DNA from: an uncultured Anaeromassilibacillus sp.
GTDB taxonomy: Bacteria > Bacillota > Clostridia > Oscillospirales > Acutalibacteraceae
NCBI GenBank assembly: GCA_930987725.1
Contig: CAKNKY010000002.1
Location: 1-64,000, forward strand
Direction of reading: 5' to 3'
DNA length: 64,000 bases
Within the stretch, counting starts at the first letter, position 1. Each line of letters begins with the position of its first letter. A model generated the notes under the pieces. It worked only from the letters and a program-made list of their open reading frames with translations. It did not search any database and was not told the DNA's origin. A program made the position numbers and the translations under genes. Shown here piece by piece: positions 3,709-40,389 of this stretch.

Positions 3709-4194
3709 ATGAACGCACATGGCTTTGTACACCGTTACGGTGATAATGTTGACACGGACGTGATCATTCCCGCCCGGTATCTGAACACGGCTTCCCACGA
3801 GGAACTGGCCGCCCACTGCATGGAGGACATCGACAAGGAGTTTGTCCACAACGTCAAGCAGGGCGACATCATTGTGGCCGGCAAGAACTTCGGCTGTGGG
3901 TCCTCCCGTGAGCACGCGCCCATCGCCATCAAGGCGAGCGGCATCTCCTGCGTGATTGCGCCCACGTTTGCGCGCATTTTCTACCGCAACTCGATCAACA
4001 TCGGCCTTGCCATTCTGGAATGCCCGGAGGCGGCGGCCGAGATTCAGGGCGGCGACGAGGTCTCCGTCGATTTCGACACCGGCGTCATCACGGACGTGAC
4101 CACCGGCAAAACCTACAAGGCGCAGCCCTTCCCGCCCTTCATCCAGAACATCATCGAAAAGGGCGGCCTCCTGAACAGCCTCAAGCAAGGCTGA
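3709..4194 (+). CDS. leuD: 3-isopropylmalate dehydratase small subunit
   Basis: [16 protein letters not shown] and [14 protein letters not shown] motifs. Confidence 0.93.
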
Positions 4195-4630
4195 GCCTTG
4201 ACGCACGACCCGCGCGAGGCTGAGCCTCGACGCACGACCCGCGCGAGGCTGAGCCTCGACGCAAGACCCGCGGGTGAGCCCGCAGGGTTCGAAAAGCCTG
4301 TTCGTGCGGGTGGCTGGTGACGACGAGGCTGAGCCTCGATGCAAGACCCGCGGATAGGCCCGCAGAACTCGAAAAGCCTTCTCGCGCGGGTGGGCTGGTG
4401 ACGAGGCTGAGCCTCGATGCACGCCCCGCGCGAGGCTGAGCCTTGACGCACGACCCGCGGGCGAGCCCGCAGAGCTCGAAAAGCCTTCTCGCGCGGGTGG
4501 CTGGTGACGAGGCCGAGCCTCGATGCACGCCCCGCGCGAGGCTGAGCCTCGACGCAAGACCCGCGGGTGAGCCCGCAGGGTTCGAAAAGCCCGTTCGCGC
4601 GGGTGGCTGGTGACAAGGCTGAGCTTGGAA
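4186..4630. repeat. degenerate GC-rich palindromic repeat array downstream of leuD
   Basis: About 8 copies of (C)RAGGC-TGA-GCCTYG plus about 4 copies of a longer CCCGCGG...GAAAAGCC...GCGGGTGGCTGGTGAC unit; first copy contains the leuD stop codon. Confidence 0.85.
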
Positions 4631-4656
4631 AGCCTGCCCGCGGCAAATTTGCACGG

Positions 4657-4703
4657 AAAAACCCCGGCATCCCGGGCCGTTCAGGCCGGGATGCCGGGGT
4701 TTT
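4657..4703. terminator. bidirectional intrinsic terminator
   Basis: AAAAACCCCGGCATCCCGGGCC...GGCCGGGATGCCGGGGTTTT. Confidence 0.85.
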
Positions 4704-25551: not shown

Positions 25552-25562
25552 CACTTGCAGTG

Positions 25563-25830
25563 AGCAAGTCACGCACCGGGTTTGTGTTTTTGCCCAGCCG
25601 CGCACGCCCGCGGTTCTTTCTGGCTGCTTGCCCACACCGGGCTCCTGTTTTCCCGGGCAGGGAGAAATCCCGCGCCTGCGGCGGGCAAGTCGCGCACCGG
25701 GTTTGTGTCTGCATTTGGACCTCGCACGCACGCGGTTCTTTCTGGGTGCAAGCCCATGCCGGGCTCCTGTTTTCCCGGGCAGGCAGGAACCCTGTCTTCT
25801 GTTCCCTGCGGCCGGGCAAAAGCCCGCGCC
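25563..25830. repeat. imperfect tandem repeat (~120-130 bp x 2 plus fragment) downstream of hydA
   Basis: GCAAGTCRCGCACCGGGTTTGTGT ... CGCGGTTCTTTCTGG...CCGGGCTCCTGTTTTCCCGGGCAGG occurs twice. Confidence 0.8.
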
Positions 25831-25869
25831 AAACCTCAATTTGATAAAGAATAACGTGGGGCCACCCGT

Positions 25870-26140
25870 TCCCCCACGCACGGAAACGTCTGAAAAGCTG
25901 AGCTTTGCTCCTTGGCTTTTCAGACGTTTCCCTTGCCAGCCGGCGGTTTGCGGCCGAAAGGCCGCGTAAGCCGGCCAGCAGCGAGATAAAGGGGGTGAGC
26001 AGCCTCAGGGCGCAGGCGTCCCCCTTCGCACAGAAACGCTTGAAAAGCTGAGCTCTGCTCCTGGGCTTTTCAAGCGTTTCCCCGTCAGCCGGCGGTTTGC
26101 GGCCGAAGGCCGCGTAAGCCGGCCAGCAGCGCGGAAGAAG
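25870..26140. repeat. two copies of a double-hairpin repeat (~150 bp spacing)
   Basis: GAAACG(TCT/CTT)GAAAAGC...GCTTTTC(AGA/AAG)CGTTTC arms plus GCCGGCGGTTTGCGGCCGAA(A)GGCCGCGTAAGCCGGC, both copies. Confidence 0.85.
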
Positions 26141-26860
26141 GAAAGAACGGCCGCAGGGCACAGGAATGGGGTTCAAAGGGGCGAAGCCCTTTTGCGAATC
26201 TTTGTCTACTTTCTTTTCGGAAGAAAGTAGAGGCCCGTCGCGGCCTGAGCGACAAATGAAAAGAAATTTGAGAGGCAAAAGTCAGTCAGGAAAGGGCGAA
26301 AAAACAAGAGAGAAAAGCCCGGCGCACATAGCACAGAACAGGCAAACAGGCAGCCAAAACAAGGCAAAAATGTGTGCAAGAAAGCGCACGGCGGGCAAAA
26401 AGGCAGCGGGCGCAAAAATCCGCACAAAACCGGCAGGAGGCGAGGCACGCGGGCCGGGAACAAAGCCACAGAACGCGGGTGCACCAGCGGGAAGTCCCGC
26501 ACACAGCCGCCGGGCGGCGGCAGCGCAGGCCAAACAAAAAACGGTGGCCAGCCCGCCGGTTGGGAACAAGGCAGCGACACACTGGCGGAAAAAACGCCGG
26601 AGCACCGGTCACAAAAGCCGCCACAACAGCGGCAGGCCGCGCAAGAACGGCCAGCCCGCCACATGGCGCGGCACATTGGGCGCAGAAAAATCCCTCCGAA
26701 CAGGCAAAATTCGCGTTCGCTCTTTTGCCTGCCCGGAGGGGCCTTGTGAAACGGGGCCGCCAAAAAACGCTTCGCTGTTTTGGCTGGCACGGTCTTTTTG
26801 CTGCGCGCTTTTGATGACAGCGCGTTTCGCGCGCGTTTTGCGGCGCGCAGCGCTGCGTCA

Positions 26861-26924
26861 AAGGGGGCGCCGCCCCCTTTCATCCCCTGCAAGCTTTTTG
26901 AAAAAAGCTTGACCAAAAACTTTC
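26861..26924 (-). repeat. dispersed palindromic repeat, minus-strand copy of the 36.7-37.0 kb family
   Basis: minus strand AAAGTTTTTGGTCAAGCTTTTTTCAAAAAGCTTGCAGGGG. Confidence 0.8.
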
Positions 26925-26941
26925 ATGTTGGGCCGGGTGTG

Positions 26942-27280
26942 TCACAGCAGCGCGAAAAGTCCTGCAATCAGCAGCGCTGCCGCGCTCACGGCTCCCAGCA
27001 CCGCCACCGCGCACCCCATGCAGCCGCCGCGTCCGTATCCCATGGGCGGACGGCGCCACGGCCGCCCCCACGGCCGCGGAGGAGGCGGAGGCGGCGGGTC
27101 TCCCGGTCCCCGCTGACCCCAGCGGGGGCCCCACGGCGTAAACCCGCGCATCCCGCCGGGTGGTCCGGGCGGAGGGCCTCCCGGGCCTCTGCCCATGGGC
27201 CCCCTTCCGCGCATTCCGCCCGGTCTGCGCATGCCGCCGGGGCCGCCGCGCAGCCCTCTCATTCCACCTGGTCTCGGCAT
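26942..27280 (-). CDS. Gly/Pro/Arg/Met-rich low-complexity protein with C-terminal TM helix
   Basis: MPRPGGMRGLRGGPGGMRRPGGMRGRG...PPPPPPPRPWGRPW...GGCMGCAVAVLGAVSAAALLIAGLFALL; AGGAGGAAACAGG before ATG. Confidence 0.6.
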   Translation of the reverse strand: MPRPGGMRGLRGGPGGMRRPGGMRGRGPMGRGPGGPPPGPPGGMRGFTPWGPRWGQRGPGDPPPPPPPRPWGRPWRRPPMGYGRGGCMGCAVAVLGAVSAAALLIAGLFALL

Positions 27281-27449
27281 CCTGTTTCCTCCTTTCCGCA
27301 TTCCGAATTTCTTTCCCTTATCATACGGCAAAAAACATGTTATGCCAACCCCTGAGATCCCCGCCTTTTCAAAAAATTTGCATTGCCTTCATCTCCTGTT
27401 GATACTTTTCAGGTAAAAAAGAAAGAAAAAACGGGAAGGAGGGGAAGGG

Positions 27450-40189: not shown

Positions 40190-40389
40190 GAAAAAACCCG
40201 CCTGGCCGTATTGTGCAAGAATAACCTGCCTACGATGAGCAGGTGGGTGCCCGCCCAACGGGTTCACGCTCCCTTCCTCCGGCAAAGCCGGGAGGTCTGC
40301 AATCCACCGCCGGAGCTAAGCTCCCGAATAAAAATTGTAGGGTTATCTGTCGCACAGGTCCGCGAACCAGGCAGGCTGCGAAAGCGGGT
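40190..40389 (-). ncRNA. structured ncRNA candidate, possibly 6S (ssrS)-like
   Basis: Long closing rod on minus strand (AACCCGC/GCGGGTT, CCTGG/CCAGG, TGTGC/GCACA, ATAACC/GGTTAT), internal bubble with CCTGC/GCAGG hairpin, upper stem GGTGG/CCACC; 3' end followed by T6; no ORF. Confidence 0.5.

Follow-up and report, generated by a model that had tools for sequence, protein, structure and literature searches.

The window (the whole 64,000-nucleotide stretch of DNA analyzed here) comes from a genome of 2.55 Mb in 98 contigs, hereafter the home genome, for which Candidatus Caccousia (Oscillospiraceae) is the closest named genus. Immediately behind the stop codon (25551) of a 581-aa iron-only hydrogenase-like gene, hydA, self-BLAST against the home genome delimited a composite repeat of ~1.4 kb at 25552-26940, in which module A is followed by module B and then by a tail with three more hairpins. 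The gene names hydA, ydcF, and pyrC were read from translations. The parts of the repeat, with the evidence for each, are as follows.

25552..25857, plus strand: module A, a 61/121-bp tandem repeat directly after the upstream stop codon (self-BLAST, repeat search)
25858..26007, plus strand: module B, tandem unit 1 (150 bp), with hp1a and hp2a (repeat search, folding, copy alignment)
25882..25931, plus strand: hp1a, a 17-bp stem with the variable triplet TCT/AGA (repeat search, arm counts)
25939..25974, plus strand: hp2a, a hairpin with outer GCCGGC..GCCGGC and inner GCGGCC..GGCCGC (folding, pair counts)
26008..26164, plus strand: module B, tandem unit 2, with hp1b and hp2b (repeat search, folding, copy alignment)
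26032..26081, plus strand: hp1b, a 16-bp stem with the variable triplet CTT/AAG (repeat search, arm counts)
26088..26122, plus strand: hp2b (folding, pair counts)
26174..26194, plus strand: hp3, a CAAAGGGGC..GCCCTTTTG hairpin, of different sequence but still paired in other genera (cross-genus comparison)
26199..26253, plus strand: conserved 3' core of TCTTT linker, hp4, and hp5 (family-wide covariance search, covariation counts)
26205-26231, plus strand: hp4 (family-wide covariance search, covariation counts)
26237-26253, plus strand: hp5, a 5-bp covarying stem with the loop GGCCTGA (family-wide covariance search, covariation counts)
26254..26940, plus strand: module C tail, a lower-copy repeated non-coding sequence (self-BLAST)

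An earlier note on this DNA had picked out two perfect hairpins at this locus, and the sequence and a repeat search of the window agree with it. Two tandem 150-bp units at 25858-26164 each contain a perfect 16-17 bp stem (hp1) and a second hairpin (hp2), and hp1a and hp1b lie within a direct repeat with 150-nt spacing. The arms of hp1a (25882-25898/25915-25931; 17 nt) and hp1b (26033-26048/26065-26080; 16 nt) are 100% complementary, in each case across a 16-nt spacer. By simple counting, ~1.5e-5 perfect 16-bp arm pairs at one fixed spacing are expected by chance per 64 kb; the pairing of the hp1 arms is far beyond chance. As the note had reported, the differences between the two hp1 copies are compensated, and a second element, GCCGGCGGTTTGCGGCCGAA(A)GGCCGCGTAAGCCGGC, stands directly after hp1 in both. 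RNA folding gave -80.8 kcal/mol for copy 1 (z -5.2 versus shuffles) and -73.2 kcal/mol for copy 2 (z -2.3). Module A is present at many loci of the home genome; its self-BLAST coverage is 45-72 matches over 25561-25781 and drops to ~20 by 25861. Coding potential of 26166-26916 was considered and set aside, because the indels between repeat copies have lengths not divisible by three. Convergent to the composite element lies a Gly/Pro/Arg-rich 129-aa ORF with a hydrophobic C-terminal segment (26942-27331, minus strand), within the hydA-ydcF interval that is ~0.15-0.2 kb long in congeners.

The earlier note had proposed a search for further copies, with just two copies and uncompensated changes elsewhere as the outcome that would tell against a maintained structure. 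There are many copies, and their stems covary. The home genome gave dozens of BLAST matches; the hp1 core could be aligned over 42 copies, and parts of the element fall into ~27 clusters. Many contigs end inside the repeat, which therefore breaks this assembly in intergenic regions, and since most home clusters stop at contig breaks, the full-length structure was seen at few loci. The 36 complete hp1 copies have matching arms in 30 cases, differ from matching by G·U only in five, and contain a C·A in one. Their variable triplet is CTT/AAG in 16, CCC/GGG in 12, and TCT/AGA in two; the mixed-arm stems with G-U on the plus strand are CTT/GGG (three), CTT/GAG (one), and TCT/GGG (one), and the one with a C-A mismatch is CTC/AAG. 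A truncated copy also contains a C-A, and in the L034 copy one arm carries an additional A and the opposite arm an additional T. Most mixed-arm forms look like crossovers within the conserved loop between allelic copies.

These stems could also have been re-matched by mutation. Template switching between the arms during replication would restore their complementarity and yield compensation without selection for structure, as published for RNA hairpins (PMC8794818); such a mechanism has also been published for E. coli quasipalindromes (PMC7202029). The long perfect stems with few wobbles are consistent with this, as is the fact that whole triplets (TCT/CTT/CCC) differ rather than single sites. 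We consider template switching a serious contender, although one that we would not bet on as the main cause of pairing. Correction by itself leaves unexplained the outer and inner stem segments and the hp5 loop, which are conserved across species; selection or recent common descent is needed in addition. Single-base intermediates also speak against it: the L158 hp1 (CATC/GAGG) lies between those of L060 and L172.

We then compared the locus with congeners. The gene order hydA-ydcF-pyrC is kept in three congener genomes (G001, G003, and G004), where the hydA-ydcF spacer is ~0.15-0.2 kb versus 1.9 kb in the window; a named record (L077) has the same short spacer, and the hydA end of a further genome, G002, matches a record of Ca. 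Caccousia avistercoris (L078). The three congener spacers represent the empty site, and they align too poorly to define junctions; of the MITE features (terminal inverted repeats and a target-site duplication), no target-site duplication could be defined. Where the element occupies orthologous sites in G001 and G004, three sites have one version in both genomes, L192 and L188 differ by a single compensated pair, L158 and L203 differ by an uncompensated change, and at L206/L195 and L189/L197 the hp1 and hp2 classes are different. This mixture is as predicted by copy exchange at fixed sites. Three G004 loci (L195, L196, and L197) have a second hp1 class (GAACAGTTTCGCAATC..GATTGCGAGTTGTTC), accompanied by an hp2 particular to it; at two of these loci the corresponding site in G001 holds the first class.

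Outside the home genome, a covariance model of the home hp1-hp2 gave weak matches only, through which elements with the same hairpin order were located. Other Caccousia genomes contain hp1-hp2-hp3-hp4 with different yet paired hp1 sequences: GGAAAACCTCAAAATTA/TAATTTTGAGGTTTTCC, GGAATCTCCCCAAATTA/TAATTTGGGGAGATTCC, and others, each followed by a GCCGGC hairpin and the same tail. Across 16 distinct haplotypes, 108 of the 112 cells in hp1 columns 5-11 are paired, against 98 in the best of 5000 shuffles, and these seven stem columns hold 11 extra Watson-Crick pair types; the copies are related, so here and below the shuffle controls overstate independence and are not probabilities. G-U pairs (six) and non-standard pairs (four) are nearly balanced in hp1 across the genus.

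The 3' part of the element reaches further. A model of hp3-hp4 matched 28 of 198 well-assembled family genomes, in 20 of the 107 sampled genera, and also three genomes of other families in a sample of the class. The shared core reads TCTTT, hp4 (a covarying stem of 10-13 bp), GCC, and hp5, whose 5-bp stem closes a GGC(C/A)(T/C)GA loop; its stem variants include GTCGC/GCGAC, GCCCC/GGGGC, TCCGC/GCGGA, TGCGC/GCGCA, and GCTGC/GCAGC. A MAFFT alignment had the hp4 arms out of register, and pairs were counted by anchoring on TTTCTT/AAGAAA. Pairing holds in 184 of 190 hp4/hp5 cells with 14 extra pair types, whereas the maximum of 5000 shuffles was 154. Thus, the maintained pairing that the note had suspected extends from ~36 home copies to the genus and, in hp4/hp5, across genera, beyond every shuffle. 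The single-contig genome G249, of a related genus, has 19 hp3-hp5 matches (L244-L251), many in tandem arrays in long intergenic islands with a spacing of mostly 700-760 bp, and would be a good model genome for the repeat family.

Such covariation, together with the conserved TCTTT linker and the hp5 loop shared across genera, raises the idea that the plus-strand hairpins are transcribed, as a 3' UTR or an independent ncRNA, and are selected as RNA with the hp4-hp5 core as their functional heart. The mixed-arm home hp1 copies, which mostly keep a plus-strand G-U (five versus one with C-A), point the same way. However, this strand asymmetry of G-U versus A-C becomes weak once congeners are added, and G-U pairs fill only 3 of the 190 hp4/hp5 cells and none of the 95 in hp4 alone, against ~7% in 31 crudely defined terminator hairpins of the same genus; selection purely as RNA therefore fits poorly. 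The orientation of the elements to flanking genes is mixed, no Rfam family matches the element, and neither hp1 nor hp2 overlaps a terminator-like site. We regard a role as structured RNA as rather unlikely, at perhaps a one-in-several level of belief. A related idea is likewise tentative and less likely than not: the hp4-hp5 core may be an undescribed structured nucleic-acid class of Clostridia, either an ncRNA or a single-strand DNA hairpin recognized by a recombinase, that recruits lineage-specific hairpin cassettes and reaches up to ~20 copies per genome. The core may have been noticed computationally before, among candidate RNAs of the human microbiome (PMC8040213).

Searches for known classes were run on the window and on the element with its relatives. 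At the Rfam gathering score, the whole window gave only a 6S RNA (40191-40380, minus strand; 67.5 bits) and nothing at the element, and lax searches of the element and relatives returned sub-threshold matches only. One of these, Clostridiales-2 RNA (RF02937), aligned weakly over its full length to hp3-hp4; at 17.8 bits against a gathering score of 58.6, and absent from the other-genera searches, it was treated as chance. Phage and plasmid collections gave no match to the element. The hp4 pattern had a single exact match in 2.9 million viral contigs (L269 7190-7218, minus strand), possibly host-derived.

The note had also placed the hairpins at an operon end. That label fits the hydA locus, where the element follows the 581-aa gene, but not the repeat family. 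Using crude gene calls (a six-frame codon model seeded with known genes), we scored the upstream neighbor as 3'-facing versus 5'-facing at 11 versus 9 positions in the home genome, 12 versus 5 in congeners, and 13 versus 12 in other genera, or 36 versus 26 in total with copies within one array counted separately. On these calls, operon-end specificity of the family was rejected for its mixed orientation. The same counts bear on whether these are ordinary intrinsic terminators, or mRNA 3'-end stabilizers, duplicated at operon ends. The element does follow the hyd operon on its 3' side, and the short congener spacers there contain short hairpins resembling native terminators. However, neither hp1 nor hp2 has a T-tract and a search for terminator-like sites at either found none, and so we think this origin unlikely.

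A transposase of the RAYT type had been suggested as a possible partner, which would make the element a REP or REPIN mobilized by a Y1 enzyme. Like those repeats, it is palindromic, intergenic, dispersed, and clustered, it forms mosaics of dispersed intergenic palindromes, and the home genome does have Y1_Tnp genes. But the intact one encodes a 155-aa IS200-type TnpA by sequence, and no element lies near the five Y1_Tnp loci that were retrieved (flanks of ~1.5 kb on each side where the contig allows); no transposase or integrase tied to the element was identified. Nor did the ends of hp1, hp2, or hp4 carry a GTAG or CGTC tag that was consistent across copies and species, and its stems, at 16-17 bp, are longer than the 5-13 bp reported for REPs, whose GTAG and CGTC groups are listed from phyla that do not include Firmicutes (PMC3733652). 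A REP/RAYT origin is thus very improbable. The note's reading is partly supported: the stems do stay paired, but a RAYT/REP origin and a general operon-end position find no support.

We reasoned that the element is probably a BIME-like, modular, non-coding intergenic repeat of the chromosome, spread and homogenized by copy-to-copy recombination. Its copies are dispersed, congeners have an empty site, one site holds different hairpin versions in two sister species, and the stems covary. Each element would be a mosaic: in the home species, tandem module A plus one or more of the 150-bp double-hairpin units, and across relatives the widely conserved 3' core of hp3-hp4-hp5, preceded by a 5' hairpin module that can be exchanged. 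Elements may insert or be copied into intergenic spacers, and homologous recombination or gene conversion may swap segments between copies, producing tandem duplication and mixed arms. The property that is maintained is pairing, presumably since the folded form matters for persistence of the element, most likely as a DNA or RNA hairpin recognized during copying, or as a tolerated insulating or terminating 3' structure; template switching during replication may help re-match the arms. We therefore favor a hairpin repeat that is non-autonomous, recombines, and persists with the help of its folded form. The confidences that we attach to this reading and to its rivals are not exclusive, as one repeat can be transcribed and undergo template switching as well, and support for any single molecular role is less than that for the repeat reading itself. 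Pairing may be kept through selection acting on RNA or on a DNA hairpin, or through correction of the arms by template switching.

Families of repeated stem-loops are well established (PMC2267715, PMC3733652, PMC3446304). The element resembles the BIMEs and REPs of enterobacteria and pseudomonads (PMC3733652) in being intergenic, palindromic, dispersed, clustered, and mosaic, and, as in their subfamilies, its stems have alternative complementary residues; unlike them, it has longer perfect stems, several different hairpins in a fixed order, no consistent tag, and no RAYT link. The repeats bcr1-bcr18 of the Bacillus cereus group, about half of them transcribed and some conserved in secondary structure (PMC3446304), are likewise dispersed intergenic repeats of Bacillota found in different genomic settings, and our element is set apart from them, by description, as a mosaic of several hairpins whose stem cassettes can be exchanged and whose core is shared between genera. 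Also by description, it can be likened to the 92 stem-loop families from 40 genomes, two thirds of which have a shared structure and are intergenic (PMC2267715). It is similar to dispersed palindromic repeats already known, was assigned here to none of the described families, and is a new modular variant in Clostridia. The best-known repeats of this sort are those of RAYT-bearing Proteobacteria; here, a well-populated system of gut Clostridia, for which no RAYT link was found, joins a conserved core with swappable hairpins. Since a single genome, and likewise the orthologous sites of sister species, hold many alleles of one stem, the system offers a natural data set on how compensatory hairpin changes arise, whether from RNA selection, DNA selection, or template switching. 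Elsewhere in the window, 4150-4700 (plus strand) contains another repeated hairpin set (GAGGCTGAGCCTCGACGCACGACCCGCGC...), and related GGCTGAGCC units occur three times in L052.
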